The notes below the pieces were generated by a model, which searched no databases, had not been told where the DNA came from, and was given only the letters and a program-made list of their open reading frames with translations. Shown here in pieces: positions 1-30,490 of a stretch of 31,583 nt of DNA. Position 1 is the first letter of the stretch, and each line of letters starts with the position of its first letter. A program made the translations under genes and the position numbers. The DNA is from Dunaliella salina (taxonomy: Eukaryota; Chlorophyta; Chlorophyceae; Chlamydomonadales; Dunaliellaceae): positions 88,300 to 119,882 of the forward strand of contig MU070264.1 of NCBI GenBank assembly GCA_002284615.2. The letters are read 5' to 3'.

Positions 1-403
1 AAGCAATGGAATATTTCTGCGCAGGTGGCCTCATGAGTGATGCCATCCAGATCCCAGCAGACATCCATAATGCCAAATACTAATCCATAATACTGTATAC
101 TCATGCATGTTCTGCCAAGGCACGCACGGAGAGCCAACATGTGCAACCAAAGGAATTTTGCCAAAGCAACCACAGAGGGCCAACATGTGCAACCATTGGA
201 ATATTTCTGTGCAGGTGGCCTCATGAGTGATGCCATCCAGATCCCAGCAGACTTCCATAATGCCAAATACTAATCCATAATACTGCATACTCGTGCATGT
301 TCTGCCAAGGCACGCACGGAGAGCCAACATGTGCAACCAAAGGAATTTTGCCAAAGCAACCACAGAGGGTCAACAAGTGCAAGCAACGGAAATTTCTGCG
401 CAG
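1..403 (+). repeat. Acceptor-side junction array of der exon 1 (about 190-bp units)
   Basis: Two upstream units repeat the intron end, the CAG and about 45 bases of exon 1. The copied exon starts are at 25 and 215, and the real exon starts at 404, so the spacing is 190 and 189 bp. The copied exon part reads GTGGCCTCATGAGTGATGCC and then diverges. The array probably continues left of the window. An upstream coding exon is not visible in this stretch. Confidence 0.9.
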
Positions 404-520
404 GTGGCCTCATGAGTGATGCCAGCCAGCTCCCGGCGGACATCCGAGAGAAGGTCAACGCCCTGCGCTCTGTGAACGCGCGCGGCCTGCCCACTGCAAT
501 TGAGAAGCAAGCTGCACTGG
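404..520 (+). CDS. der: der exon 1 of window (post-G3 region of GTPase domain 1)
   Basis: The acceptor is TTTCTGCGCAG at 393-403 and the donor is G|GTGAGT at 520/521. The exon enters in phase 1, its first GT completing a Gly codon, and leaves in phase 1. It encodes [17 protein letters not shown] and on to IEKQAAL, matching the segment that follows the DTGG motif of Der domain 1. The acceptor is echoed twice upstream and the donor several times downstream. Confidence 0.93.
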
Positions 521-1884
521 GTGAGTGGGAATTTCAATGGAGACATCTGCGATGGAAGCATAGGTCATCGGCCCTCTGCAAATGTGAAGCAAGCCGTACT
601 GGGGGAGTGGGAATTTCAATTGAGACATCTGCGATGGAAGCATCTGCCGTTTGCCCTCTGCGATTGAGAAGCAAGCTGCACTGGGTGAGTGGCTAGTTCA
701 TGGGCTTTGGCCGACTTTGCAGCCGAGATGCACACTGAAGTCTAATGTGTTCAGGATCATTCCCGAATGTGCCGAACTGAGACATCAGCGGCCATCTGTG
801 TAATTGAGAAGCGAGCTGTACTGGGTGAGTGGGTGGGTGGAATGAAGACATCTGGGTGGAATGAAGACATCAGTTAGGCCAACTACCATCTGCCATCTGT
901 TACTGAGAAGCATGCTGGCCGTATTGAGTGATTGGGGGGTGTAGTTGAGAAGCAAGCTGTGTTGGGTGATTGAGAAGCACGCTGGCCGTATTGAGTGATG
1001 GGTAGGTGCAGTTGAGAGGCAAGCTGTGTTGGGTGATTGAGAAGCACGCTGGCCGGATTGAGTGGTGGGAAGGTGCAGTTGAGAGGCAAGCTGCGTTGGG
1101 TGATTGAGAAGCACGCTGGCCGGATTGAGTGATGGGAAGGTGCAGTTGAGAGGCAAGCTGCATTGGGTGATTGAGAAGCACGCTGGCCGGATTGAGTGAT
1201 GGGGAGGTGCAGTTGAGAGGTAAGCTGCGTTGGGTGATTGAGAAGCACGCTGGCCGGATTGAGTGATGGGAAGGTGCAGTTGAGAGGCAAGCTGTGTTGG
1301 GTGAGTGGAGAGTACAATGTGAGCCATCTACAATGGATTGGTCGGCCCTTTGTAGCCATGGGTAAATAGGGTGTTCCAATATCTCAAACGGGCTCGCCAA
1401 GCCTAGAAGAGGCTCAGCCCATTTGGGTAGGGCCTCTTCGGATACACTGATTTGTTGAGTAGTTTGTTGGGTAGGCGGTTTTGCACTATTTTTGGGTGAA
1501 AAGAGGGTCAGGCCCGTCTGCCAAATAGGTTCCCCGAGCATCGCCTAGACTCGCCCTCGGCAAGGCTCTCCTAGGTGCCTACTCAGCCCTAGCTATTTGC
1601 ATCTATGCAGGGAGAGTGGAAAGTGCAATGGAGAAGCAGGCTGCATTCGTTGAGCAGGCGTTGTCGCGCGATGGTGGTAGACAGGGTCTCCCAAGGAAGC
1701 TCCAATGTTGCCTGCACATGTGGGACGTGTGACTGTGGGGCTTGGGGTGCTTCCAGGGTGGGCATCAAATATTGAAAAACTGTGCAGGGAGGTGCTTTTC
1801 AAAGAATTGCACACATCTACTTTCATTCTGGCGTGCCCCTTATGCACCACACTGTGTTCGTTATTTGCAGGGTTGGATTCACAG

Positions 1885-1953
<69 letters not shown>

Positions 1954-4900
1954 TCTATGCTGCGCATTTTCCATGTTTTACGAGCCGCTGTGAGAAACAA
2001 GTAGCAGCAGCACTTGGCTTTTAAGATTGTTCCAGTGGTTTGCATGCTGGGAGTGACTCCATATCGTTGGTCCCTGTGACTAATACAAAAGCCCTCTGTA
2101 ACCTCTCAAGCCACAGCGAATGTTATGTTTGACCCCTTGAGCACCTCATGCAGTAATTTTAAAGAATTACTTTTGAATATCCCAATGAAGCATGAAAAAT
2201 AACACAATAACACTCTTGCTGTGACTCGTGGTGCATGGAGAGCACATACAAATCTGTGAGGTCGAAAGAACAGTGTTTTCGGCATCTTTCCTAAGCGTTG
2301 TTTATCTAAGGGGCTAGAATCACCCTCTGCCTCCTCATTAAACTGTGGCGCTTGCACACTTTGGCATCATAAAAGCACTTGAAGACTCATAATGCAAGTT
2401 AATCATCAGAGGGTCCTAACTTGGCCATTTTGGGGGGTCTGTCACAAGGAACTTTTCTGAAGCCCCCTGGCCTCGTCTTACCGAAAATTTTTGGGGCAGT
2501 CATGTTCTGTAATTACAAAGACACGACTCAGCAAAAAAAGTTGTGGAAGAATTGGCTCGGTGTGTGTGCTATGGCGCTCAAAAAGGGAAAAAGGGGGCCA
2601 TGTGGTGAAAAATGGGAATGTTCCACCTGACCCCATTTCGTTTGACGACAATTTTACCCTCAGGTGTGTGGCAGTGATGTAGCCAGCACCATTGCAAGTA
2701 AAATGGGGTCAATTGGTGGTCTGGCTGAGTCAGAATGGGCGAGAATGTCTGGGAGGCTATGTGGACCTCTAAGACCTCACCTCTGTTTTCACTCAAGGAG
2801 CACTCCTCAGGAACTTTTCTCGAGACATTCAAACAGTAAGATATCAAAAGATATAAAAAATAAAAGCTATCAAAATTTGGGGTCGAAATTTTGCGGCCAA
2901 ACTTTGACCTGGCCTAGTTTGGCACCGGTCACTGGAACCAAAATAAAAATTATTGCTAACAAAAGAACAAAAGATTTATTGCTAACAAAAGAACGCGCTT
3001 AAAGGCTTTCCAACGCACTAACTCCCGTTCTGGTTCCAGTGACCAGCGCAACTATAAAGTCATAATACTTCATAGTTGCACACATGAGTTGGGACCCTCT
3101 GGTTAATCATGCACACAATTAACACAGTCGGTATCACTTGAAAACCAAGGGTGTTAAGGAAAACCCTGGAGCAAGGCAGCAGCAGCAGCTTGTCACTCAC
3201 GTGTTCCATTTTTTGCAGGATAATATTTGAAGGTTTACTTTTTATGGAACAAGCCAACTCTGCGTATGTGCCCTTGCGTGAGGCAGGCCGCCTCTGAAGA
3301 GTTTCCAATGGGCAGCAAACACTGCAAAAGAGCCTCGTCACCGTGTTGACTCTGCACGCAATGGGAGCTTTCTCCTTGTGTCGCATGCATTGGTTCCAGG
3401 TGTGGAGGAGGCAGGCTCAGGAGCGTTGCCCTTGGATGGCAAGGCAAACTCCATGATACTGCTGGTGGACAGCATGCAATGAAAGCCTCTCCCATGTGTT
3501 TTATGCATGTATCCAGGTGTGGAGGAGGAGGACTCAGCAGTGCTGCTCGTAGATGGGCTTGACAAACTCCATAATGCTGCTGATGGAAAGCACGTAGTGG
3601 AAGCCTTCTCCCTGTGTTGCATGCGTTTGTCCAGGTGTGGAGGAGGTGGACTCAGCAGTGCTGATCATAGATGGCAAAGCAAACTCCATGGTGCTGCTGA
3701 GAAACAGCATGCCATGGGAGCCTTCCCCGTGTGCCACATGCATTTTTCCAGGTGTGGAGGAGGCAGGCTCAGCAGTGCTGCCCTTGGATGGCAGTGCAAA
3801 CTCCATGATACTCAACATGGAGAATCATGGAGAGAGCGTGCAAAGCAAGCTTCCTCCGTGCGTTGCATGCATTGTTCCAGGTGTGGAGGAGGCAGACTCA
3901 GTTGTGCTGCTGGTGGATGGCAAGGCAGGCCTGCAAGCAGGGGACCGCGAGATATTGGACTGGCTGCGCACAAACCACCCTCGCAAGAAAGTACACTTAG
4001 CTGTCAACAAGTGCGACAACGTTTCTAAAGCAGACCTCATGGTGGGTACAAAGGAGGTGGTCTTAGCTGTACAAAAAAAGCCGAACAGAGATAGTGTGCC
4101 TAGGTGTCAACACGGTGTAATGGCAACAACGTGTCCAAAGCGGGCCTTATGGTGGGTACAAGGCATGCTGCTGGTGGATGGCAAGGCAGGCCTGCAAGCA
4201 GAGGGCCGCGAGGTGTTGGACTAGCTGCGCACGAACCACCCTTGCAAGCAAGTGCACCTAGCTGTCAACAAGTGCGACAACGTATCTAAAGCAGACCTCA
4301 TGGTGGGCACAAAGCATGCTGCTGGTGGATGGCAAGGCAGGCCTGCAAGCAGGGGACCGCGAGGTGTCGGACTGGCTGCGCACGAACCACCCTCGCAAGG
4401 AAGTGCACCAAGCTGCTGGCAAGTGCGCTAACGTGCCCAAAGCGGACCTCATGGTGGGTACAAAGAAAGTGCACCAAGCTGTCGACAAGTGCGTTAACGT
4501 GCCCAAAGTGGACCTCATGGTGGGTACAAAGAAAGTGCACCAAGCTGTAGCTGGGTACAAGGAAAGAGCACCTTTCCTAGCGGTCAACAAGTGCGATAAC
4601 ATGTCCAAAGCGGACCTCGTGGTGGGTACAACATAAGCGCACCTAGCTATGGAGAAAGCTGTACAAAGAAAATGCACCTGGCTGTCAACAAGTGCGACAA
4701 CATGTCCAAAGCGGAGCTCACAGTGGGTTCAACGTGCTGTATAACCCTTTCTTTTCGATCTTGTCTGCTGTCAACACACTTCACAACAAGCTGTAGGCAA
4801 GCTTCATGGTACATGCAAAGCACGGGATGCTCCTTTTTCTGACGTTTGTCTGCTGTCATCAAGCGCAGCAGCGTATCCAGGGCAGACATCATCATGTGTG

Positions 4901-7900
4901 CAAAGCACAGGGGGCTCCATTTTTTGCCTGGAGTGCTGCGGGGCAAAGGTTTTCCCGTTTGCTGCTGCCAAAAAAAGAATGAATGCTAGCAAACAAAGAA
5001 TATTCAAGCTTCAAAGTCTGGGCCTCCAACTCTAATCCGGAATTAAAAATGGTGCCTGATTTGAACTTTTTGTGGGCTCCAGCCTTGCCCTGGGGCTCTG
5101 GAAAATTCTGCAGGTTGCTGCATTTGGGTGTGTGGAGGGCATCGATGCAGCTGTTTTGCTAAACGATTTGGTGGTTTTTGCACAGTGTGGCATCCATTTT
5201 GCACAGTGTGGCATCCATTTTGCACAGTGTGGCATCCATTTTGCACAGCGTGGCATCCATTTTGCACAGTGTGGCATCCATTTTGCACAGCGTGGCATCC
5301 ATTTTGCACAGTGTGGCATCCATTGAATGAGGTCCACGTTCGCAATTGAGTGGATATCACTGGAGTTCCGCATCAGGGCAGGTGCACCAACTGATCTTCA
5401 GAGCATGCTTGCTAAAAAGAAAAAAAAGCAAGACTCTGCAACAGGGAGCCAGTGCATCCCCGGAGCAGCGATGCATCGACTAAGCAGCATCCCTCCCAAT
5501 AACAAGACAAGGCTCCACAGTTTAGCAGGTGCACCAACTGGTCTTCAGGGCATGCTTGTCAAAAATAAGAAAACAAGGCTTTGCAATTAGGCAGCTGCAT
5601 CATACCATAGGGTGTATGTATAGTGTTCTGCAGTGCATGCCTGTCAACAACAAGGCAAAGGCCTGCAACAGGGTGAGTGCGTCTCTTGTGCCATGACTGC
5701 GATGCGTAATATACTAGCAAACCCCTTCATGGCACAATAAATAATATGATTTTTGTTATTACATATTAGACCCAAGAAGTAAAATTCCATCTGAAATTGG
5801 GTATGGTGGGGGTTGTGCACTCCAGCGATTGTTTATTGGAGTCCATTCGAAACAAGGATAATGAAAAAGAAAGTTTCTTGCGTTACAACTACAATTCATC
5901 ATGTCAACTTTGGAGCTGCATGCAGCAAGCATTCAGAGCAAGAAAGCATCCAAGGCTTCTGCTGAAAGTACACCGCTGCAGCAAATTAGGATACATTGTG
6001 ATGATCCATCTCCAGTGGCGCTCGGTCCTCTTTCCTTTCCCAATTCCCCTCCACATTCATCTCGATAAAGACAATTCGTTCCTGCACGGTCTTGTATCTC
6101 TTTCTCTCTTTTTTCTATCTCTTTTTTGGATTCCTGAAGGGGAACACAAAGGTGATGGAGAGGCAGAGAAATATATGTTGACATCAGTCAACTCAGTTGG
6201 CATGCAGGGGGGGAGAGCACAGATTACATCAGCTCAGATTACATCAGCTCAGATTACATCAGAAGTGGGCTTGTAAAAGGCTTCTGTGAATGAATGAGCT
6301 GCATTCAATGAAAAAGCACCACTACAGGCATTGTAAAAGGTCTCAAAGAAAAGAAAATTGAGGGGCGCTGAAGACAAGGATCCCCAGCAATTGCAACGAG
6401 ACCATGTTTCCTAAAATTCCCCCCCNCCCCCCCCCCCCCCCCCCCCNCNCNCACACACAAAGCAGAAGACACAGGGGAGCCTCAACTGGACCCCAAATTT
6501 GATGCACGAGGGCTGTTTGAAAGTGTATGCACCCGACACACATTTCGTCACCTCCACTGTCTGTCTCCCACGTTTCAACACGTGAGACGCGCGCATTGAG
6601 TTGCCTGCATCATTGAATCCCTGCGTATTTGAACACCCGCAGGCATCTGAGTTCTGGGAGCTGGGCTTGGAGCCTATCCCCATCAGTGCCATCACGGGCT
6701 CCGGCACAGGAGAGATGTTGGATGCGCTAGTCCAGGTGTGCAGCAAAGGGCTCTAAATGTGAGGCATGATGGGATAGTGGGGTTTTGGGGGGGGGGGGTA
6801 TAGTAGTTCCGCTTCTGCATCAGGCCGGAAGGAGTGCTGGGTGTGCTGGTCCAGGTGCGCAACAAATGGCTCTTTGCAGGTGTGCAAAACATGGCCCTTT
6901 GCAGGTGTGCGACAAATGGCCCTTTGCAGGTGTGCAACAAACGGCCCTTTGCAGGTGTGCAACAAATGGCCCTTTGCAGGTGTGCAACAAATGGCCCTTT
7001 CCAGGTGTGCACCACATGGCACTTTGCAGGCGTGCAACAAATGGCCCTTTGCAGGTGTGCAACAAATGGCCCTTTGCAGGCGTGCAACAAATGGGCCTTT
7101 GCAAGTGTGCAACAAATGGCCCTTTGCAGGTGTGCAACAAATGGCCCTTTGCAGCTCTTGCAACAAAAGGCCCTTTGCAGGTGTGCAACAAATGGCCCTT
7201 TGCAGCTCTTGCAACATCCACTTCAAATGGAGACCTGAGGAGACAGAGCTTACAGCCGTGCAATGAGATTGTCTGCATGCTTGTTTGAAATCAAAATCTC
7301 CACAGGCCTAGGGGCAGGAGCCCAAGGAGGCAGGGCTCTCTTGCTGATAATTTGCTAGCACATATCCCCTTCACTGAAGGGGAAGACTCTTCTGAAACAC
7401 CGCCTCCTTGTAAGAGATGCTCATGAGCCTCCTGAGCATCTCTTACAAGGAGGCAGTGTTCCAGAAGAGTCTTCCGAGCAATTACCCACGCTTGTAATCA
7501 CAAACCTGGGTGCTTCCTGCATGGAATAGAAAAAAATTGAGAAATTTGATTTTAAATTCCTGCATTACCCAACTCTGGTGGTTGACACCCTCGGCAGAAA
7601 CGATTGCCCAGCGATTGCGCATACAAGAAATATTTGCTGAAAGCAAGTTGCTTTTCTTAGCATGCATGCCCCTTTTAGAAAGGTCCTTTGTCCATCATTA
7701 CCCTGGCCATGGTGAGTTGTTTGTGTGTCTGCACATTATTGCAGGCATTACCACCCCCTAAAGGAGGAGAGCTAGAAGAGGCAGAACCACCCCTGTCTAT
7801 AGCAATTGTGGGGCGGCCTAATGTCGGTAAGAGTTCATGTGACGGCACAGTGCCTTTGTTACGATATGTAATTGGCTTAACTTTGTTTGCCTCGCAGGCC

Positions 7901-10900
7901 TGAGCACTCCAAGTGCTTGTGTGGCTAAAGCGCCAGTGAGCGCATGGCTTTCCCTCCGGCAGTGACATGAGTCTCTTTGAAAGAGTGCATGACACTTTTC
8001 CGGAAATCACCATCATCTCTTGATGTGAAGCACTTTGCCGGTTTAGTGCTGCTCACGCTTGGCATGTGCAAGCTCAAGCCTGCTTGATGCTTTGCCAATC
8101 CTTTCATACACCCTGATGCCTTCTTACCTTGCCGTCTCTTCACCCTCGCACCTTGAGCCCATCCCACCTGGTGCGCTGCCTACGTGCCTTTCCCTCGGTC
8201 TGTTGCTGTGTTTGGTTGCATCCATGCAACGACTTCCGTGAAGCCGCATTCATCGGGCATTGTGAGGCCCTCGATTTGCCCCCCCCTGCTATGTTCACAC
8301 TTGGATGTTAGCCTAGCATGCCGCCCTGTCACCCACTGCCCTGTGGGCCCTGTCACTAGTTGACTGCCCTTTTAATTGCCCTGTTGATTGCCCCATCACT
8401 AGTTGACTGCCTTGTTGATTGCCCTTTCACTAGTTGACTGCCCTGTTGATTGCCCTGTTGATTGCCCTGTCACTAGTTGACTGCCCTGTTGATTGCCCTT
8501 TCACTAGTTGACTGCCCTGTTGATTGCCCTGTTGATTGCCCTGTCACTAGTTGACTGCCCTAGTGATTGCCCTGTTGATTGCCCCGTCACTAGTTGACTG
8601 CCCTGTTGATTGCCCTGTCACTAGTTGACTGCCTTGTTGATTGCCCTGTTGATTGCCCTTTCACTAGTTGACTGCCCTGTTGATTGCCCTGTTGATTGCC
8701 CCGTCACTAGTTGACTGCCCTGTTGATTGCCCTGTCACTAGTTGACTGCCCTGTTGATTGCCCTGTTGATTGCCCTGTCGCCCACTGCCCTGTGGGCCCT
8801 GTCACTATTTGATGGTCTTTACAAGTTCATTATATCGTTATTAACTGTTTTAACCAACATCACCAATTCATCATTGACAATGCAAATGCTAATTTGCTTT
8901 CACTGTGGTCCTCTGTCACCCTTGCCCTCACTGATGATGATGATGATGGTGCCCTGTCGCTGTCACTCTTGCTTTCACTGTGATGCTCTCTGTCTGCCCT
9001 CTTGTCCTGTCGCTCATGCATTCACTGCCGTGTCGCCCTCCTCACCCTTGCATCCCCACCTCTGTCGCCCTGTCACCCTTGCATTCACTGCCCATTCAAT
9101 CAATCGCCCTTGCAATCACATCCCCGTTGCCTCAGCACCCTGGGCATCGCTGCCCTGCCCACCTCTGTTGCCCTGTCGCCCTTGCATTCACAGCCCTGAC
9201 GCCCAGTCAACCTTGCACTTCCTGCCTTGTTGCTCCTTCACACTTGCATTCACTGCCCTCTCTCCCCGTCACCCTCGTATCCACAGCCCAGTTGTCCCAT
9301 GACCCTCGCATTCACTGCCCTGTCGCCCACTCAACTTTGCACCTCTTGCCTTGTTGCTCTTTCATACTTGCATTCGCTACCCTGTTGCCCTGTCATCCTT
9401 TTATTCCCGGCCCTGTCACCCTTGCATTCACTTCCCTGTCGCCATGTGGCCCTACCTTTCACACCCCATCACTCTCGCCTCCACTGCCCTGTCGCCTCAT
9501 CACCCTTGCATCCACTGCCCTGTCGCCCCATTAACCTGGTATCCGCTGCCCTGGCACTCTCACATCCACAGCCCTTTTGCCACGTGGTCCTTTGCATGCA
9601 TTGCCCTGTTGCCCTGTCACGCTTGCATTCACTACTCTGTCGCCATGTGACCCTTGCTTTCACACCCCATCGCCCTCGCATCCGCTGCCTCATCACCCTT
9701 GCATTCATTGCCCTGTCGCCCCATGAACCTGGTATCCGCTGCCCTGGCACTCTCACATCCACAGCCCTTTTGCCACGTGGTCCCTTGCATGCATTGCCCT
9801 GTTGCCCTGTCACGCTTGCATTCACTGCTCTGTCGCCATGTGACCCTTGCTTTCACACCCCATCACCCTCGCATCCACTGCCATGTCACTTCGTCACCCC
9901 TTTCATCCGCTGCCTTGTCGTCCTGTCATTCTCATGTCCACTGCCCTGACCTCCACTGCTCTGTTAAATCGTCACCCAGTGCAGCTTGTCGTTATGGTGT
10001 TGCTCACACCCAGTTTGTGCAAGCTGAAGCACACACAACGTTTCCCCGTGGTCACCCTGCATCACTTATGGAGCTTGCTTGTGTTTTCTCCATCATTCGC
10101 CCACTTGCAATTCCTGCCAACTCTTGATTGATTCCGCAAGAAATCCAGATCCTGCTGAATACGAAGTATGGCAGTGCACTTGTGGGTTTGATTGTGTCGA
10201 ATAAGGGCCCAGCTTCTCAACTCTTTTCTGAGTAAATCCAACTGCACCACCACCATCATTTCTGTCCAAGCAGCCTGCTGGACATGGTACGAGAAGAGAA
10301 ATGCATGATGTGTGTAACCAGCTCACACTCAAAGAAATGATCCCCGCAGATGTGCAACCATCCGCTCCTCTTAAACAAGAATAGCCTGCTGGACAAAATT
10401 TAACAGGTGGAATGCCTTAGTGTGAGACATGGTCTTACAGGTGTAATGCTTGAGTGTGGGACACAACCTTACAGGTGGAATGCTTAAGCGTGAGACACAA
10501 TCTTACAGGTGGATGCTCAAGTGCGAGATGTAAGCAAAGCTCCCTGCAGTGCAGGTTTGAGGCTTTCCTTTAAGCCCAAAGCCTGAAGCCCACTTACTAG
10601 AAGGATCAAAGCCTTCACCGTCCATTTATTTTGCACCGCCACTGCACAACCACTGCACAACCATCCGCCCCTGGTGCAGGCAAGGGCAGCATGCTCGACG
10701 CGATCTTTGGGAGGTACATAATCATCTGCACCCTTGTTATACCACCACTGCAAAACCACTGCACAACCACTGCGCAACCGTCCGCCCCTTGTGCAAGCAA
10801 GAGCAGCGTGCTGAACGTGCTCTGTGGGGAGGTACATAACCATGTGCACCCTCGCTGCATCACCACTGCACAACCGCTGCACATGTGCAGTTGTACAACC

Positions 10901-13900
10901 ACTGCACAACCACCCACTGCACATGTGCAGTTGTACAACCACTGCACCACCCACTGCTTGCGCAGGCAAGAGCAGCCTGCTTAACGCGATCTGTGGGGAG
11001 GAGCGTGTGATTGTGTGTGACATAAGCGGGACGACCCGGGATGCAGTAGACACGGAGGTGACCTTGGCTTCCGGAGCCAAACTGAAGCTGGTGGACACTG
11101 CAGGCATTCGGAAGCGAACCAAGGTGTGCAGACCAGGGTCATCCAGAAGCGACCGGCTGCTTTGGAGGAAGTCTGAATGAGTGTGAGGGCTTGGTTTGTG
11201 GGGAGGAGCTTCTGGCTGTGTGTGGCATGAGTAGGGATCAGCATTGGCATATAGCGCTATATAGCATATAGCGCTATATTGCATTATAACACGCTATGTA
11301 TTTTTGCGAAAAGTGCCATATGCCGACTATAGGTCGGCATAGTATATGTAGTATAGCGCTATATAGCGCTAAAGGTTTGGCCCGTATAGCGCTATATGCT
11401 ATAGCGCTATAACGCTATATAGCGTTATATCACGCTATATATTTTTGCGAAAAGCGTCATATGCCGACTATAGGTCGGCATAGCGCTATATGTAGTATAG
11501 CGCTATATCGCTATACAGCGCTATATAGCGCTGTAGGTTTGGCCTATTTAGCGCTGTATGCCGATCCCTAGGCATGAGCGGTAGACCCAGGTGTGATTTT
11601 TTGATGGCTTTCGGAGTCGGAGAAACTGCAGCTGGAAGACACTGCAGGCATGCGAAAGCAGACCCAGGTGTGGAACGCGTTGCTCAGAAGCGACCCCAGG
11701 GTCAGATCTGAGGGAGTCCGAGGGTTCACTTGGAGGGGAGGAGCATGCCGTGATTGTGGGGCATGAGTCGGACATTGTGGGGCATGAGTCGGACTATGTC
11801 GTTGTGGGGCATGAGTCGGACATTGTGGGGCATGAGTCGGACTATGAAGGATGAATCAGTGGTCTCGGAGGTAACCTTTTCTTCCAGAGCTAAACTGGAG
11901 CTGGTGGACATCTTGGGCATTCGAAAGTGCATCAAGGTGCGTAGGCAGCGTCGCCCCTGCAGCAACCCTAGGGCTGGCAAAAGGAGTCTGAGGGAGTGTG
12001 AGGGTTAGGTCTGGGGGAAGGAGCGTGTGACTGTGCGTGACATGAGCTGTACCGCCGGGATGCTGAAATGCGGAGGTGATGTCAGCTTCCGGAGCCAAGC
12101 TGAAGCTGGTGGACGCTCCAAGCACTTGGAAGCGAACCAAGGTGCACAGACAGTGTCAAAGGCGTGTATTGGATTTGGTGCACTCCTCTGGAATGAAACT
12201 GAAGCTGGCAAGCACCGCTGTGTGGATGAGAGCAAGCCTGGGCGTGCGCATGAGTGGGGAAAAGGAATACGTGTGAGCTAGCAGGCACGCAGGGAGAGCC
12301 AAGACCACCTTGGTGGGAAGGAGCAAGCCTGGGCATGCACATGAGCGAAGAATTGATGTGAATGTGTGAGCTTGAGTTACGTAGGGAGAGCCAGGACCAG
12401 ATTCAAGGACGAAGAGCAAGCCTGGGCATGCACTTGAGCAAAGATTGGTTAAGTGTGTTAGCTGGTAGTCACACAGAGAAAGTTCAATGCCACCTCCGGG
12501 GAACAAGAGCGATCCTGGGCATGCACGATTTCGAATTTGTATTTGGCGAGGTACGCACACAAAGGGTGCCGAGGTAGTCCCCCCTTGATGCGACATTCAA
12601 TACACAAGATTTTGATGGTCTGCTACAAGGATTGTCTGTGACCATAGTCCACTTGTTGTAAGTAGGTTAATTTGAAACGCTGCAGCTATCTTGCTTGCCT
12701 CTTCGGGAGCAGAGGCTGTGTGACCAGTCTGGCAACAAGTGTCGAACTGGAATCTTGCTCTGCTGGGGTGAGGAAAGCCAAAAGGAGCACAGGGAATGAA
12801 AGCACGACAAAGCAGGGTTGGGTCAGTTGCTGGCCTGACAAATTGGATTCGCGAACGCTGCGACAAAGTTTGAGATTTGATGAACTGTTTGTATGTGTGT
12901 TTGCCTGTTGGCGGGAGGCTGGGAAGGAGCGCCTGCACCTCAGCCACCTGTCCCACCTTGAACAATTGTTTGCATGAACAATTGTTTGCATGAACAAGAG
13001 ACCATGTATGGGGTAGAGACCATGTATGGGGTAGAGACCATGCATGAACAATTGTGTGCATGAACAATTGTTTGCATGAACAATTGTGTGCATGAACAAG
13101 AGACCATGTATGGGTAGAGACCATGGATGGGGTAGAGACCATGCATGAACAATTGTGTGCATGAACAATTGTGTGCATGAACAATTGTTTGCATGAACAA
13201 TTGTGTGCATGAACAATTGTTTGCATTAACAATTGTTTGCATGAACAAGAGACCATGTATGGGGTAGAGACCATGCATGAACAACTGTTTGCATGAACAA
13301 TTGTTTGCATGAACAAGAGACCATGTTTGGGGTAGTCAGGGGGGTTTGTAATGGGAAAATCGGGGGTGTCAGGGGGATGTCAAGGGGTCCTTTTTGGCAG
13401 ATGGCATAAAGTTCTACGAACTGGCAATTGAAAGTTTGCAAATAATTCGAAAAAGTTCAAGAAATCTCAGGCCGTTCCAACCTCTCAAATGAACCCAACC
13501 TTGCAATAAAGCAAGTTTGACGCAGGTCGTGCTGACAAGATGGTCAGACCCAGCAAGGATGAGCTGTGCCAATGTCTCAGACGTGGCCCTAAAGGGAATT
13601 TCCTCATGCAAAGGACCTTGTGAGGGCAAAATTCCTTGTGCACATGCCCTTTTTTGGGGGAACGTGCTTGCACCAAGGCCCTTGAACTGGCTGACATGGG
13701 CAATCTTTTGCTGCTTCAAGGTCCCCAGAATTCACTCACGACCATGTATAGTGGCAGGCGACCCCGCAAGGACACTCTCTCTTTTGCTTTTGCGACTTGC
13801 ATTTGCACGCATGCAACTTTTGTTCATGAAACCTAGGAAACCCGCTACACACACACACACACACACACCAGGTTGCGGACAGTGCAGACAGCTCGGAGGC

Positions 13901-13985
13901 ACTGAGTGCGGAGCGTGCCCTCAGTGCCATGCGACGTGCCGATGTGGTGGTTGCCATTGTTGATGCATCTGAGGGAATCACACAG

Positions 13986-14076
<91 letters not shown>

Positions 14077-14077
14077 N

Positions 14078-14171
<94 letters not shown>

Positions 14172-17100
14172 CTGTGTATGTGTGAGTTTGTGTCCTGACT
14201 GCTGGTTGTTTTGTTGCGTCCATTTTCTTGGCCTATCTTGGTGACAGTGACTGCAAGGCGGATTGAGTTGCGTGCAAGGAGGTGTTGGAACGCCTGCAAA
14301 GCAGCCTCAATTGTCTGCAAAGCAGACCTCAGAGGTGTTTGCAGGTGGTAGCGACCTTTATGTCTCTAGGCTTTTAAAGTGCTTAAAGCACACACAAGCA
14401 CACACGAGCACACTGCTGTCTTGCTGCGCTTTGCGAACACTGCTATGTTGCTGCGCTTTGCAAACACTGCTGTATTGCTGCACTTTGCAAAGACTGCTGT
14501 ATTGCTGCACTTTGCAAACACTGCTGTATTGCTGCACTTTGCAAACACTGCTGTATTGCTGCGCTTTGCGAATACTGCTGTATTGCTGCGCTTTGCGACG
14601 TGCTTATCAATCCTTATTTTCTCTGGGCTCATACGGTGCTTTATTGCTGTACTGCTGCGCTTTGCGACATGCTTATCAATCCTTATTTTCTCTAGGCTCA
14701 TACGGTGCTTTATTACTGTACTGCTGCACTGCGACATGCCTAACAATTGTTAGTACTGGAGCTTAGCAAGCCCTGCAAGTTTGCTACACTTTGCGTGGCT
14801 TCGAGTAATAAGAAAGACCTGGTACCAAACAAGAGTAGGGTTTCTCCTACCCATTCCCATCACGCTTTGCGCAGCTCCTCACTGAGGACCACCAGAACTA
14901 GCCGCATGAGGCAACCCCATGAACTCCATGCAAATGAACGCCATGTGCACCTAATAGAAATCAAGTTCTGTGAAGACACAAGGCCAGAGCATCAGTTGAA
15001 CGCAGCAAAGCGGCAACATGCAGACCTTTGTAAACTGATTAACGCTAAAGCTGCTACAATTCACCCTATTCTCCTGGGTGTAGGTGGGACTATTTACACT
15101 GAGCATACCCTCAAGCAATTCAAACAACTAGGATTGGATCATCAGCATGCCACAAAGCTTGCTCAACAACTTCATGCCCATTCTATTCAATATGCCCACA
15201 AATAAGTCACCACACGCAGAGCCATTGAAAACAAGAATACTTCCCACAGCCAGGTTCTAGAGCCAGAAGCTTCTAGTAACCCTCGAGATCCACATTAGAA
15301 TTCTCTTTTTCATACTTTGTGGTGCAGGGGGCACACGGCTCTTTTTGAGCCAATGTGTCTTCTTAATTGATGTAGGGAGAATTTCTCTGCCTACGTAGTT
15401 TTTCTTTTCTTTCTTTTTCTTTTAGGGTGGCACACCTTATTTGAGCTGCTTCTGTTGTTCTGCCACACCTGTTTTACTGCTGCAGAGGTCCCTTGGTGCT
15501 CCTGTGTTTTTCCGCGCAGGACTTCCGCTTGACAGAAATGGCTGCAAATGAGGGGCGTGCAGTTGTGGTGGTGGTGAACAAATGGGACAGGGTGGACACC
15601 AGATTGTGGACGGAGGAGCGCTACATAGAGGACGTGCGGGGACAGCTGCGGCACGTTGGGTGGGCATCTGTGGTGTGCACAACAGCACACAAAGGTGAGG
15701 AAGGGGACAAGTGGATGGAAGAGTGTGCTACATCAGCGGGAAGGATTTGTGCATAGAGGGTTTGCAGGGGCAGCTGCAGCATGTTGGATGAGCATCTGTG
15801 AGCACACAGGAGCACACATGGGTGAGAAAGGAAAAAGAGGGTGGGGAAGCATGGAGCAGCGGAAAGGAGCGCTGCATAGAGGATGTGCGGGGACAGCTGC
15901 AGCACATTGGGTGAGCATCTGCGGTGTGCACAACAGCACACTGAGGTGAGGAAGGGGAGGAAGGAGGGGGAGGAAGGAGGAAGAAGAGGCAAACCGGGTA
16001 TAGGAGTTGTTGCATGGTTCTGGAATCCGTCTCACTTTTTGGGATGCGTCATGCGCCACAGGCAGAGGGGCTGGCGAAGTGCAAAGGCATGTGTTGTGCT
16101 TTTGAAATGTGTCCTTGTGCCATCTTTTCCTGCAGCCATGCTTGGCGCCCCTTCAATGTTGTATGAACATCAGACAGGACAGTCAGAGGATGAAGCATTA
16201 AGGCCATCCAATTTTTTTGGAAGCTTTTTCAGGTGGTGCCTTCAGAAGGGACCTCTGGAAGCCCAACTCCCTTGTTGCATGGCTGACAGGCAGGGAAGTG
16301 GATCAAGGGTCGGGGCAATCCAAGTTTTTTAGGTGATGCATTCAAAAGAGGCCTTTGGAAACCCAATTCCCATGTTGCATGGCCGATAGGCAGGGCAGTG
16401 GATCGAGTGATTTAAGCTGTCCAATTCCTTTTGGAAGCTCTTTCAGTTGATGCCTTTGAAGGAGGCCTCTGGGAACCCAATCCCCTTGCTGCATGGCTGA
16501 CAGGCAAGGCAGTGGATCGAAAGTTCAAATCCATCAAATATTTTCGAGTTTTTTTTAAACGGACGATGACTTCCAATGACACTCCTTGAGACCCAGACCC
16601 TTGACCTCGTTGCATGTCTTAATGCATGATAAAAAGGGCCGTAGATCAAGTGGTTAAGACCCTCAGATTTATTGGAAAGGTTTGTCAGGTGATGCCTCCA
16701 AAGGAGACCTCTGGAAACTCAATTCCTTGTAGCACGGCTGACAGGCAGGGCTATACATCTGGCCATGGATTGTCTTTTAATGTTTTCAAAGGCGACCTCT
16801 AAAAACCCAAACCCCCTTGTTGCATGGCTGACAGGCAGGGCCGTGGATCAAGTGGTTGAGGCCATTGTGGCAGCAGGCCAGCAGCACCGGAGGCGTGTAA
16901 GCACTGCCACATTGAATTTGGTGAGTCAGCAGCAAGCACTGTTCATTATATGAGGTGGGTCACTGCTGAGCGCTAATCCATTTATGAGCTGGGTCACAGC
17001 TGAGCACTATTCCATACATGTAGGGTGCGACGTGGGCGTGTAATAGTGCATAATACGTAATATTACATGGCCCTTCGCGTAATATTACTTATTCTTCGTG

Positions 17101-19683
17101 AAATTTACACCCTGGACTCAGCTTTGACCTCTGAGTGCAAACAGATTCAAAATCGACAGACTGTGCAAGACGGGAAGGTACAGGATTCACATTGAGAAAG
17201 GTGACGATGGGAAGAATAGGCAGCCAATCTTGAAACAGAACCTCACCCCAGAGGGCAAAAGACACCTTGAGGGCAAAAGGCACCTTGCGTGCTGCAATGC
17301 AAAGGATGCATACAGTTCTTGAGTGCGAGTTACCTTTGGCAGAGTATCAAGCAGCATGACAGGTCATGCAAGATGCAAGAGGCCTCTCCAGCAGGGCAGG
17401 AAGTCATTGACCTTGAGCAGGGTCCTGCATGATGAGGGCCCAAGGCAGTGCAGTCTTCAGTGATGGAGCACACAAATGAACCCCCAAGTCCGCAGGGAGA
17501 TTTGAGGCTGCTTCTGCGGAGCGTCATCTGCGCTGCGATCCCATTCATATGGGTGAGAAAAAGGGAGAGTCAGATGCACTTCAGTTGGAAATAGATGCTC
17601 TGAGCCCATCCTTTTCTGAGGGTGATGTGTAGGATTAAGTAATATAACGTAATTTATTACGTAATCATTTTCCTGTTAAGTAATGTATCATGTCGTACCC
17701 TGCATGTATGAGCTGGGTCACAGCTGAGCGCTGTTCAATGAGCGGATGGTGTTGATGAGCTGGGTCACAGCTGGGCACTATTCCATGTATGAGCTGGGTC
17801 ACAGCTGGGCACTATTCCATGTATGAGCTGGGTCACAGCTGAGAACTAATGCATATGAGCTGGGTCACAGCTGAGCACTGTTCAATGAGCGAATGGTGTT
17901 CATGAGTTGGGTCACAGCTGAGCACCAGGTCTGTCAGATCTTGGCTTATGTGGTATGATATTGGTCCTGCAAATACTCTCAACCCAAGGTATTGAGGTAT
18001 TTTACAGCACTTGGATTTGCAATGTTTGAGAGGAGCCATGAGTCAAAAAAATGTATGACTGCTGGGCTATGGTAGATGCAAGCAAATCTTGCGGCTCCCA
18101 CCAGGGGGTTTTCGTGGTCTTGCTGGTGAAAGACATAGAAAAAGTTGCGCCAGCTAGAAAGTCTGCATTTAGGACAGGTTCCCTGACTTGCAGCTGCACC
18201 AATGGGTGTCCTGATATGCAACGTACTCCTGGAATTGGCAAAGGAGGAAACGCTTTGTTTTACGCCTCACGCTTGTGGTGTACGCTGGTGTACGCTTGCC
18301 TGCGCACTCTTCACGCTTGCCTGTGTGCACACCGAAAACAAAAGCACATGTGTGCACCCCTAGCTTGTGCTCTGCCTTGTCATGCCAAGTACTGAGCATT
18401 GTATAGACCATCTATTTTGTAAGCAGAAGTCGCTGAATGCTTAATTTGCAGCTTGTTCTGACTGTAAGACCCGGCATTTGCGGTGAATGCTTGCAGATGT
18501 GTGGCTGGCTTTGAAGAGTGATAGTATGGCAAGGGATCGGCATACAGCGCTGTAAGAGCCATACCTGTAGCGCAACATAGTGCTATGTAGCGATGTAGCA
18601 CTGTATTGCGCTATGTAAAATCGCATGGTAACACTACTATAATTCTCCAAAACTCCCCTTTCCAAGTCGAATTTGGCCATCAGATTTGGATGGCAGGCGG
18701 GGGAACATGCACAGAGCACCCTTGCCAAAAATAAAAGTGGAAAATAAGTTTGTCAAGCTGTGGACTTGGTCTGGCACAAATATAGCGCTATATCAGCACT
18801 CCACTTTGGTGAAGGGCACATCCTCCTTGATGGTGTGAATGGCCATCAGTCTGTGAAACTGCTTGTGCTGGCTGGAGCTCACTGTAAAGGGTGCCTTCTT
18901 GCTCTTCTTGGGGGTGGGCTGGCCAATCGGTATTGCATGCATTGCGCAGTCCACCCCTTCCACTTCCTGCTCCTCTCTGGCTTCTTGCTGCTGCTGCCTT
19001 CACCTTTGCTCTGAGCTGTTACTCCTGCTGCTACTAATGCAGCTCTGCTGATGTGCACACATGGCAGACGCGTCCCTGCAGGGTTTGCAGAAGGGCTGAG
19101 GTCGGCCTTGCACACCTTGCACTCCAGCACGCACAGCCCCCCACACTCTGGCTTGATTTCAGCAATGAAATGATCACTCCATGCCTTATCGCTCCCACTC
19201 GTCAGCCTTTGCTTAAGGTCCTTAGGGGTGGCACGCCCCTGCACATGGGAATGCTTGCCTTTGTCGTCTAGTGCATTCTTCATCCATAGCAAATCCCTTG
19301 AACTATATCAATTTTTTGGATTTCCACGGCTTATACAGCCTTTTGAAGAGCAATTTAGGCATACCCAATTAAGCATGCACTATATCCCAAAATTATATAG
19401 CGCGATATCGTGCTTTATCGCGCAATCTTATAGCGCTATATGCCAATACCAATCCCCAAGTCTGACGCATTCAATTTGTATGGAAAAATCACGACGTATG
19501 ATCCCATTACATGCTGTTGTTCCAGAGGAAAATGGTACCTGAAACACTGGCATGGTGACACATTCCCCACAACCAATGCATGTGCAGGTAATTCGAGAGG
19601 CCACCGCATGGAAAGCGCCACCAACGCAACGGCGCTCCCTGAAAAAGGGCCGGATCTATTATGCCACCCAGGTAGTTCCTGCG

Positions 19684-21690: not shown

Positions 21691-22239
21691 TGAAAGAAAA
21701 AGATAAGTAAAAAAAGAGAAAAGTAAAAAAAGAAAAAGAAAGTCTACGAAAGCCAAGGCCCCTAACAAAAGTTAGAGACGTCACCAGGGGGCCCTTTGCC
21801 TAAACTAGGCAAAACTAGCCTAGGAGAGAGCAAAGACAAAAACTATTGGGGATCCAGAGGATTGTTAGCCATGCCCCTGAGCACTCAGACTCTCCTTCTT
21901 CCATCCTCAGCCGCCTCCGTGTGCCGCCCAGTAAAACCTCCTCCCAGGTGTCCCCTGGAAGCGAAGTGCATGTCTAGTGTTAATGATGGTGGATGATCTT
22001 AGGACGGCATGGTCCCTAAGCTGGGATGCTAGCGATTTAGCTTTTTGTTTGGTCAGGCCCAGATTTATAACTTATATAGAGGTGGAGGGATACTAGAAGC
22101 ACCAAGCTCTAGGATCTGGCTGTGGGTACCTACAGTACTCTTGTCTTCGATAGCACAACGCGTGGAAACAAACTTGTAGGCATATTGAACAGAATGAGCA
22201 TGAAGTTAATGAGCTAGTCGGACGTTGGTGATCCAGATC

Positions 22240-23240
22240 TAGATGTTTCAATTGCTTCAGGGTGTGCTCAGTATAAATAGTTCCATTGAAACTCAGGAAA
22301 ATTGTTGTAGCTTAAGCGCGAATAAGGTCTGCATGCTGCTGCTCAGCCGCATTCAACTGATGCTCTGGCCTTGCGTCTTCACAGAACTTAATTTCTATTA
22401 GGTGCACATTGCGTTCATTCGCGTCAAACTCATGGGGTCGCCTCATGCGGCTAGTTGTGGCGGTCCTCTGTGAGGAGCTGCGCAAAGCATGATGGGAATG
22501 GGTAGGAGAAACACCGCTGAAGTGTGTTTGAAGTGTGCATTAAAAGGGGTAATCAAAACAGCATTTGGTCGACCAGTGTTGAGTCTTTTCCTCTCTTCAA
22601 GTTGGTTACGAGGGAAGTGTTGAGTCTTTTCATCTCTTCAAGTAGGTAATGAGGGAAGAAGTAAGCAGGTAAAGTTCTGTTTGAGGCATGTGTAGGGAGT
22701 TGAAGGTTGTGCAAGCTTATAATCGCTGCCGAAGTCTGTGTAGACCAGGCCTGCTCCCACGGGGCTTTTGCTCAGGGCTTCCGTTAGAAAAAAAGAAAAG
22801 AAAATTATGCAGGCAGTGAAAACACTCCCCACATGTTGTGGAGTTCAGTTCTCATGTTGGAGATGATATGGTCCTGGCGGCCTGAGAGCATGTGGATTGC
22901 GCTGTCCAACTGATGACAGCATGGGTGGGTGCAAGATGGGTCAGTTGACTTTTTGAAACGGACTGCATGTTTTTGATTATACAGGGTGCAAGTGCGGTAT
23001 TGCAGGATGGTGTGCTTCGTGGGTGTGGATATACTTGACATATTCCTGAAAGCATTGCTAATTTTGTTATGTACATGTGGTAATAAGTTTTCATAGTAAG
23101 AATTGCAACTTGTTTTGGCATTGGCATATCCAAGTTTGTGTTTTGTATGCATGTGGAATTTAAGAGTGTTTTGAAGATTGGGGAGATAGGTGACCTTGGG
23201 GGCAGGAGGAGGAATCATGGACGTACCCGCAGCATGCACT
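22240..23240 (-). pseudogene. Zinc knuckle and PD-(D/E)XK endonuclease of L2, frameshifted
   Basis: YLPNLQNTLKFHMHTKHKLG, then QYRTCTLYNQKHAVRFKKST and CHQLDSAIHMLSGR mark the knuckle, whose last Cys is Arg. The endonuclease half has GRPNAVLITP, so the Asp of RPD is Asn, and [11 protein letters not shown], with an intact ExK. Frameshifts separate these pieces. Confidence 0.75.
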
Positions 23241-28730: not shown

Positions 28731-28953
28731 GAAAAAAGAAAAGAAAAGAAAAACTACGTAGGCAGAGAAACTCTCCCTGCATCAATTAAGGAAAAGGAGA
28801 CATATTGGCTCAAAAAAGAGAGCCGTGTGCCCCCTCCACCACAAGGTATGAAAAAGAGAATGCTAATGTGGATCTGGAGGGTTACTAGACGAACCTGGCT
28901 CTAGAATATGGCTGTGGGAAATATTTTTATTTTCTATCGCGCAGCGTGTGGTG
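28731..28953 (-). mobile_element. 5'-truncated LINE 3' end (copy L5), abutting L4
   Basis: This short copy contains the last codons and 3' UTR of the L4-type LINE and ends in a TTTTC-rich tail (complement of 28731-28753). Its 5' edge touches the TTTTC tail of L4 at 28953/28954, so the two stand head to tail. Confidence 0.8.
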
Positions 28954-29079
28954 AAAAAGAAAAAAAGAAAAACTATGTAGGCAGAGAAACTCTCCCTACA
29001 TCAATTAAGGAAAAGGAGACACATTGGCTCAAAAAAGAGCCGTGTGCCCCCTCCACCACAAGGTATGAAAAAGAGAATG

Positions 29080-29915
29080 CTAATGTGGATCTGGAGGGTT
29101 ACTAGAAGCACCTGGCTCTAGAACCTGACAGTGGGAAGTGTTCTTGTTTTCAATAGCGTGGCGTGTGGTGACTAGTTTGTGGGCATACTGAACAGAATGG
29201 GCATGAAGTTGTTGAGCAAACTTCGTGGCACGCTGGTGATCCAATCCTAGTTGTTTGAATTGCTTCAGGGTATGCTCAGTGTAAATAGTTCCACCTACAC
29301 CCTGGAGAATAGGGTGAATTGTAGCAGCTTTAGCGTTGATAAGTTTATAAAGGTCTGCATGCTGCTGCTTTGCCGCGTTCAACTGATGCACTGGCCTTGT
29401 GTCTTCACAAAACTTGATTTTTATTAGGTGCACATGGCGTTCATTTGCATGAAGTTCATGGGGTTGCCTCATGCGGCTAGTTCTGGTGGTCCTTAATGAG
29501 GAGCTGCGCAAAGCGTGATGGGAATGGGTAGGAGAAACACCATTAGAAGTATGTTTGGCATTAGAAGGGGTGATCAAAGCAGCATCTGGTCGACTGGAGT
29601 TCAGTCTTTTCCTCTCTGGAAGGTTACGAGGGAAGAAGTAGGCAGGCAAAGTTCTGTTTGAGGCATGTGTAGGGAGTTGGAGGTTGTGTTGAGCAAGCTT
29701 AAAATCGCTTCCTATGTCTATGTTTACTAGGCCTGCCCCTACAGGGCATTTGCTGAGGGCTTTTGTGATCTTTCTGCCTGCAATGTTATGGCGTTCAGTT
29801 TTCATGTTGGAGATGGTATGGTTTTGGCAGCTTGAGAGCACGTGTAGTGCGCTGTCCAAGTGATGGCAGCCTGGGAGGGGGCAAGATGGATCAGTTTACC
29901 TTTTAAAACGTACTG
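29080..29915 (-). pseudogene. Zinc knuckle and PD-(D/E)XK endonuclease of L4
   Basis: CPLPGCHHLDSALHVLSSC forms a C-x4-C-x7-H-x4-C knuckle. It is followed by NMKTERHNIAGRKITKALSK, an S-S-RPDAALITP segment, [34 protein letters not shown] and a stop after NPPDPH. It is the longest open copy (260 codons), but the ExK glutamate is Lys (IKIK for IEIK). The predicted nuclease should therefore be inactive. Confidence 0.82.
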
Positions 29916-30015
29916 CATGTTTTTGGTTGTAGAGGGTGCCTGTGCGGTACTTCAGGATGTTACGCTTCATGGGTGCAGAAATGTTGGGCATATTTCTGAA
30001 GGCATTGCTGATTTT

Positions 30016-30490
30016 TTATCTACTTGCGGTATTAAGTTTGAGTGAGGTGTCAGCTTCATTAGGCGACATAGCTGCTTGAAGTGCAAGGGCATCTGCGCCT
30101 TCATCACCAAGGATGCCACTGTGTGATTTTACTTCGTAGGAGCGTATAGGACCCTCTGATGCACAAATGTGATTTATTATTTCTTTGAGTATTGTTGTAC
30201 GTAAGTGGGTGGACATGTCCATGGGCTTGAGGATCGGGTTTCTAATCTGATTTAGTGCTGAAGAACTGTCAGTCGCATGTGAAATGTGCTGCCCTTGCCG
30301 TAGAGCCACCAGAATGGCAGCGAGCTCTGCTCTGTTGGTTGTATTAGCGGGTCCATGGCCTTCTGAATTTATTGCACAGGTGATGCCTTGCAAGATGAAA
30401 AAAGATGCTCCTGCCTGCTGTGTATTCCGGTTGTCGGAGTTGATGACCCTGACATCTGTAAATGTCAGGTGTCACCAGTCTGGGATCTTT
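30016..30490 (-). pseudogene. RNase H domain of L4
   Basis: The minus strand reads LTFTDVRVINSDNRNTQQAG, NRAELAAILVALRQG, HATDSSSALNQIRNP and VKSHSGILGDEGADALALQA. The four RNase HI acidic positions (Asp in FTD, Glu in AEL, Asp in ATDS, Asp after HSGILGDEGA) are all present. A frame change separates the first strand from the rest. The sequence stops being open just before the zinc knuckle. Confidence 0.82.

Follow-up and report, generated by a model that had tools for sequence, protein, structure and literature searches.

The window, a stretch of 31,583 nucleotides of Dunaliella salina DNA, holds the gene of the GTPase Der/EngA. It comprises bases 88300-119882 of contig C824 (119882 bases), in an assembly of 284,922,659 bases and 1403 contigs; the published draft of D. 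salina CCAP 19/18, made from Illumina and PacBio reads, was about 343.7 Mb (PMC5658486). Ten exons in one open frame encode the C-terminal 417 residues, and the stop codon ends at 20531. The nine donors and ten acceptors are canonical GT-AG throughout. The translation is 100% identical over its full length to the public 658-residue D. salina protein and 97% identical to a transcript-derived MMETSP protein. About 240 N-terminal residues are unplaced, because the contig reads N at 64866-88299 (23 kb), immediately upstream of the window. Nine of the 19 splice junctions are accompanied by tandem copies of the junction in the adjoining intron, which we call echoes. A copy was counted in a gapped self-comparison if it included the junction with at least 10 bases on each side and lay in the adjacent intron. 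In the following list, exons 1, 2, 3, 5, 7 and 8 are based on open frame, splice sites and protein match, and exons 4, 9 and 10 on open frame and splice sites, with the absence of echoes taken from the self-comparison.

404-520, forward strand: exon 1, the first in the window
3881-4041, forward strand: exon 2
6643-6735, forward strand: exon 3
7745-7826, forward strand: exon 4, without echo
10966-11123, forward strand: exon 5
13872-13988, forward strand: exon 6, with its donor at the beginning of a (TG)n run, without a unit echo
15520-15694, forward strand: exon 7
16835-16920, forward strand: exon 8
19588-19671, forward strand: exon 9, without echo
20349-20531, forward strand: exon 10, the last, with the stop codon, without echo

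The (TG)n run at exon 6 is about 200 bases long (window 13980-14193), and its first GT is the donor itself. Donors in other genes (L084, L067, L052 and L037) also enter GT microsatellites, immediately or within about 25 bases.

The self-comparison found echoes at the acceptors of exons 1, 2, 5 and 8 and at the donors of exons 1, 2, 5 and 7, with units that contain 15-137 exon bases. The echo of the exon 3 donor lies under the E-value cut of this comparison, yet 32 of its 40 bases match the junction, and its local score of 44 exceeds those of all 100 shuffles (at most 26). Altogether, about 36% of the intron positions of the gene lie in arrays. Those at the junctions, and one array that is purely intronic, are the following.

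1-445, forward strand: exon 1 acceptor echo array, period 190, with copies at 1-66 and 191-256 that hold 42 exon bases
488-1337, forward strand: exon 1 donor echo array, with copies at 571-700, 652-700, 799-861, 1141-1177 and 1275-1337; GT kept in 4 of 5
3354-3927, forward strand: exon 2 acceptor echo array, four copies at a period of about 117 that include 40-47 exon bases; all four retain AG
3905-4733, forward strand: exon 2 donor echo array, six copies, all of which retain GT, with at most 137 exon bases
6832-7205, forward strand: exon 3 donor echo at 6832-6873, continuing as a 25-bp array with the unit CAG|GTGTGCAACAAATGGCCCTTTG
10639-11001, forward strand: exon 5 acceptor echo array (gapped self-comparison)
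10990-12158, forward strand: exon 5 donor echo array, with copies at 11605-11771, 11857-12046 and 12010-12158, the farthest being the best
15614-15992, forward strand: exon 7 donor echo array, with copies at 15752-15992 and 15865-15958 (gapped self-comparison)
16198-16865, forward strand: exon 8 acceptor echo array, three copies (gapped self-comparison); AG kept in 3 of 3
16936-17925, forward strand: intronic array without exon sequence, previously read as an exon 8 donor echo

The first-pass annotation of this DNA had claimed such arrays at 10 junctions, and self-comparison and local scores bear out nine of them. The exon 8 donor has to be dropped, as its best score is 26 against a shuffle maximum of 27 and the match does not include any exon base. 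The same annotation had described copies that decay with distance from the real exon, so that growth would be polar. We did not find this: among 18 junctions with at least three copies each, the correlation between identity and distance was negative at nine and positive at nine (median, 0.01), and at the donors of exons 5 and 7 of Der the best copy is the most distant one. No match joined the donor end and the acceptor end of the same Der intron in the nine introns compared, all of them under the 4-kb limit, where old homology may have decayed.

Echoes are not confined to Der. Our sample of about 154 kb of non-N sequence, picked by conserved domains, consists of 133,559 bases from other genes and a Der stretch of 20,560 bases. 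Outside Der, 30 of 147 junctions carry echoes: 14 of 70 in chaperonin and kinesin genes (39 exons), 11 of 44 in DEAD-box helicase genes (23 exons) and, in a later check, 5 of 33 in protein kinase genes (18 exons). The exon ends in these genes were placed by eye at canonical sites beside profile matches and are not transcript-verified. The chaperonin and kinesin set had 78 exon ends, from which four unassignable ends (first or last exon, N, or unclear) and four N-rich ends were dropped; at L030 one profile match ran across two exons, and the outer ends were used. The DEAD-box set had 46 ends (23 of 24 matches taken), of which one was unassigned and one N-rich, and the kinase set had 36 (18 of the 66 matches listed), with two unassigned and one N-rich. 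The arrays consist of head-to-tail copies, with the middle half of unit lengths at 66-110 bp and the 5th to 95th percentile at 38-146 bp. Identity between copy pairs runs from 70 to 91% (10th to 90th percentile), and because the copies have diverged in this way, a simple assembly artefact is unlikely to be the source of the arrays. Acceptor and donor echoes tend to occur on the same exon (10 exons with both, 17 with only one and 50 with neither; p 0.001), and one segment, C656, has no detected array. At about 539-600 of L088 there is a copy of the interior of a kinase exon upstream of that exon, and some echoes therefore extend far into the exon. In L025, a chaperonin intron has an apparent GC donor (GAG|GCAAGT, exon end 1611), an assignment based on where the protein resumes in the next exon.

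Repeat coverage by itself does not single out the junctions. It is flat over them, with 25 of 114 junctions covered at the junction itself (0.22), 21-24 of 113-114 at +60 to +300 (0.18-0.21 from +10 to +300) and 0.14-0.17 at +400 to +600, and it falls to 5 of 114 (0.04) at 60 bases into the exon. To read this as junctions being merely as repetitive as introns would be misleading. Since more copies inside the exon would alter the protein, a junction can be covered only by the terminal unit of an array; it is thus a small target, and the neutral expectation for it is lower than the coverage of the intron. We therefore simulated random tandem duplications with unit lengths taken from the data and uniform rates, in which duplications that span a junction were accepted, exonic ones were rejected and the exon anchor did not mutate. 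In these simulations coverage was 0.05-0.10 at the junction and 0.15-0.29 at 500 bases into the intron, and 90 of 785 detected arrays in eight sets spanned a junction (11.5%), compared with 31 of 84 in the real data with Der included. When Der was left out and the kinase loci were added, the figures were 29 of 77 for the real data and 97 of 624 (15.5%) for eight neutral sets, the highest single set giving 20 of 72. Homology-dependent renewal of anchored arrays did not account for the excess either: a simulation of array growth of this kind gave 185 of 1608 (11.5%) in eight sets, with parameters that overshoot array number and density, so that nothing but the ratio can be used. Compared with the neutral model, arrays that span a junction are about 2.4 to 3.2 times as frequent, whether the discovery gene is in or out, and this excess is the firmest result of the analysis.

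The edges of the arrays give a similar picture. At the 147 junctions outside Der, 24 exon-proximal edges fall 10-60 bp inside exons, almost fourfold the 6.4 that were simulated, whereas the first 60 intron bases hold 6 (7.3 simulated) and the region from +60 to +400 holds 45 (37 simulated). An earlier set of 133 junctions that included Der had 23 exon-end edges where 6.0 were expected, and the kinase set alone had 4 at its 33 junctions where scaling gives about 1.4. If exons lay in a general zone of instability, edges should be in excess on the intron side too; an excess on the exon side only does not fit such a zone. An array placement independent of splice junctions, which is what neutral minisatellites would give, was not observed, so the original view that the arrays are something other than randomly placed, ordinary minisatellites is upheld by both the frequency of junction-spanning arrays and the edge excess confined to exon ends. 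The idea that repeats are centred on junctions more often than on random positions was right insofar as arrays exceed the neutral null, but there is no peak of coverage. Selection that merely tolerates duplication as long as one junction stays intact had also been proposed; it is contained in the simulation and is insufficient for the observed excess.

An aspect absent from the first-pass annotation is the preferential retention of the splice dinucleotide in the copies. At 38 echo junctions (19 acceptors and 19 donors) this dinucleotide was kept in 112 of 123 distinct copies (91%). Where it occurs at other places in those copies, up to 100 bases away, it was kept in 60%, or 64% in the exon part. 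Paired by junction, retention was higher at the splice dinucleotide for 33 of the 37 pairable junctions, lower for 3 and tied for 1. As a function of offset, retention peaks only at the splice dinucleotide, where it is 0.91 (background, 0.65), and none of 5000 random-offset draws reached this value, with or without Der; for the five junctions of the kinase set alone, retention was 0.78 against 0.56 (P 0.11). Copies within one array are not independent, and the result rests on the 38 junctions. As a strict baseline we took the exon part of the copies at the first and second codon positions, where the anchor scarcely changes. Per-base identity was 0.871 there and 0.953 at the dinucleotide, with 30 junctions higher, 6 lower and 2 tied (p 0.0002), or 22 versus 6 without Der (p 0.004). 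Taking one copy per junction gave p 0.005 for the most diverged or the farthest copy and p 0.03 for the nearest against this baseline, and p 0.0002 or less against a baseline of local identity.

From the most to the least diverged class of copies, the dinucleotide was retained in 10 of 10, 91%, 90% and 90%, where a naive expectation is 46, 55, 66 and 82%. Retention is thus the same at all levels of divergence and therefore resembles constraint, with the excess carried by the more diverged copies; in the least diverged ones it is 0.90, barely over the expected 0.82. The 11 losses fall on 7 of the 38 junctions, and they include all three copies of the C99 acceptor and three of four copies of the L085 donor. 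Mutational stability of AGGT, or of the GT or AG context, is unsupported as a cause, given the peak by offset and the fact that AGGT elsewhere in the arrays is kept at only 51% (153 positions), against 79% at the 19 AGGT junctions; at the 19 junctions with another four-base word, that word is kept in just 63%. Among the positions up to 12 bases from the junction, +1 and +2 are kept best, both in donors (0.94 and 0.98) and in acceptors (0.94 and 0.95), and the first exon base has an identity of 0.90 in donor copies and 0.93 in acceptor copies. The preferential retention of the splice dinucleotide points to selection on the copies themselves. The case for constraint is good, but it comes from 38 junctions, and the mechanism behind it is something we infer. 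Offsets of the nearest copies, taken modulo three, have remainders of 0, 1 and 2 in 10, 16 and 12 cases; as there is no bias to multiples of three, use of the echo sites in the protein is unlikely, and we rejected it as an explanation.

How such copies arise and why they persist can be explained in several ways. In our tentative preference, which we hold with somewhat less than even confidence, duplications that span a junction persist because their copies stay competent for splicing, some copies perhaps being used in nested or recursive removal of the intron. Local tandem duplications would arise in and around D. salina introns in general. Those that span a junction would be retained more often, as the extra copy comes with a splice signal and is not necessarily dead intron, while the real junction beside the exon would still yield the correct mRNA. 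The copies could then pair with each other or with the real sites in intermediate splicing steps, so that a copy in use would be a removable piece that has been added and not a burden. From the moment a copy is used, losing GT or AG would leave a piece of intron in the message, and the dinucleotide would become entrenched. What is observed in support are the arrays, their excess over the neutral model, the array edges at exon ends and the preferential retention of the dinucleotide; that the spliceosome uses the copies, and that such use explains their persistence, we infer from these. Half of the echo junctions (19 of 38) are AG|GT, but this is no enrichment, as the proportions are 12 of 19 for donors and 7 of 19 for acceptors, compared with 38 of 64 and 21 of 64 at junctions without echoes. 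The lack of enrichment would count against a pure ratchet model, and a need for AG|GT in stepwise splicing gains no support from it. Of 51 copies at AG|GT junctions 50 had the dinucleotide, as did 62 of 72 copies at the others. A bolder version seems doubtful to us. In it, one class of D. salina introns would expand through tandem copying of their own junctions, the copies would remain working splice sites, removal would proceed piecemeal through a ratchet or nested array, and this would have been a main route of expansion for the intron-rich genome.

The simplest alternative is that these are ordinary neutral minisatellites, i.e., random duplications that are tolerated over junctions because the outer junction stays intact, with the conserved exon anchor only making old arrays visible. 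Flat coverage over the junction fits this, as do the abundance of arrays in all parts of introns (in Der they take up about 36% of intron positions) and the richness of green algal introns in tandem repeats, in the available text of PMC3887541. It is nevertheless disfavoured, and we consider it unlikely, as simulations that contain both tolerance and the anchor give 11.5% and 15.5% of junction-spanning arrays where 37-38% are observed, homology-dependent growth does no better, and neither kind of simulation predicts that the splice dinucleotide is preferentially kept. A mutational process that targets junctions, such as template switching at cotranscriptional R-loops or repair near stalled splicing, would duplicate exon-intron borders preferentially. 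It would explain why array edges crowd 10-60 bp inside exons and not in the neighbouring intron, and why acceptor and donor echoes occur together on exons, although this co-occurrence could also stem from differences in array density between loci, as the array-free C656 segment illustrates. Such a process gives no reason for retention of GT and AG in diverged copies, and as the whole explanation it is improbable to much the same degree as neutrality. A mutational preference for junctions may, however, act in addition to the splicing use of copies that we prefer; the co-occurrence of echoes on the same exon would be consistent with that, but equally with differences between loci.

Another possibility is that the echo sites are bound but not cut, serving as extra sites for U1 or for 3' splice-site factors, whether for recruitment, as decoys or as protection from premature polyadenylation. 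That +1 and +2 are the best-kept positions at donors and acceptors, and that this does not hinge on an AG|GT composite, would agree with binding. On the other hand, the positions at which donor copies would pair with U1 (+3 to +6) are hardly better kept than the rest of the intron (0.82 versus 0.78), and there is no known reason for arrays of acceptors, which makes binding alone quite improbable. Finally, the echo sites could be ordinary alternative splice sites whose unproductive isoforms regulate expression. The kept dinucleotides are compatible with this, and offsets without a bias to multiples of three would often mean a frameshift and decay, but regulated unproductive splicing would then be needed at 38 of the 166 tested junctions, and we regard this as very improbable.

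Some known systems resemble parts of what we describe. A stwintron consists of an external intron and an internal one that lies within a splice element of the former, and its removal takes two reactions. A dual-specific splice site is a single AGGT that serves both as donor and as acceptor. Ratchet points of recursive splicing, in Drosophila and human, are juxtaposed AG|GT sites in long introns that allow stepwise removal. Like echoes they are splice sites within introns, but they are not described as copies of the neighbouring junction, and the echoes of D. salina are not enriched for AG|GT. Introner elements are near-identical intron sequences across many unrelated genes; our echo units were each compared with their own locus only.

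That introns can be gained when tandem duplication supplies splice sites is an established model, according to the available portions of several papers (PMC4974935, PMC3629103, PMC2891723). In known cases (ATP2A1, the potato RdRp gene, fission yeast and Drosophila), as in the echoes, a local tandem duplication provides splice signals; the fission yeast gained introns have 24-nt tandem repeats with AGGC sites (PMC3629103), and in potato an intron-exon structure was duplicated (PMC4974935). In D. salina, by contrast, no intron gain is seen, and introns instead receive copies, often many, of a junction that they already have. For the stwintrons of Lipomyces, the accessible text proposes that new donors arise in an existing intron by donor duplication, followed by nested or one-step removal (PMC7138796). 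Those duplications, as described there, are 4-7 nt long and concern one intron, whereas in D. salina the units are mostly 66-110 bp, include exon sequence and occur at donors and acceptors in several gene families. The human UBC gene has dual-specific splice sites in a tandem array with one site per unit, and the accessible text reports an 8.4-fold enrichment of such introns in tandem repeats (PMC10809524); the UBC repeats given there are coding monomers, whereas those of D. salina are intronic with a piece of exon and have AG|GT at only 19 of the 38 echo junctions. Across 31 plant and algal species tandem repeats lie nearer to intron ends, most strongly in two green algae, Chlamydomonas and Volvox, but the study in its available portion treats repeat motifs and not exon-containing units, and contains no splice-site test in copies (PMC3887541). 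Hidden exons in Chlamydomonas intron gaps, as far as the source's available text goes (PMC4938644), have no bearing on junction echoes. In the available text of open-licence papers, a scope outside which the main analysis of the D. salina genome (Algal Research 2020) falls, no account was met of arrays whose units are entire exon-intron borders and keep the splice dinucleotide.

Junction echoes bring together, in one organism and with events frequent enough to be counted, three subjects: algal intron minisatellites, intron gain by tandem duplication and stepwise splicing. That echo copies keep their splice signal hints that the cell may still be using them. If the echo sites are used, the growth of introns need not be a pure burden, and D. 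salina would be a place to watch it; its genome is 53% intron, according to the available text of a review (PMC12702839). If they are unused, one still has to explain why diverged copies keep GT and AG and why there is an excess at exon ends. Echoes are also of concern to annotation, as close decoys both for gene finders and for the spliceosome. The window contains other repeats too. Intron 6 of Der holds a dispersed element (14840-15419) that is antisense to 28953-29538 (92%) and to 22085-22512 (78%), and the stretches 22083-23090 and 29092-30039 are 74% alike to each other. Palindromic TATAGCGCTATA repeats lie in intron 5 (11250-11561), and a related inverted stretch is present in intron 8 (18526-18605).
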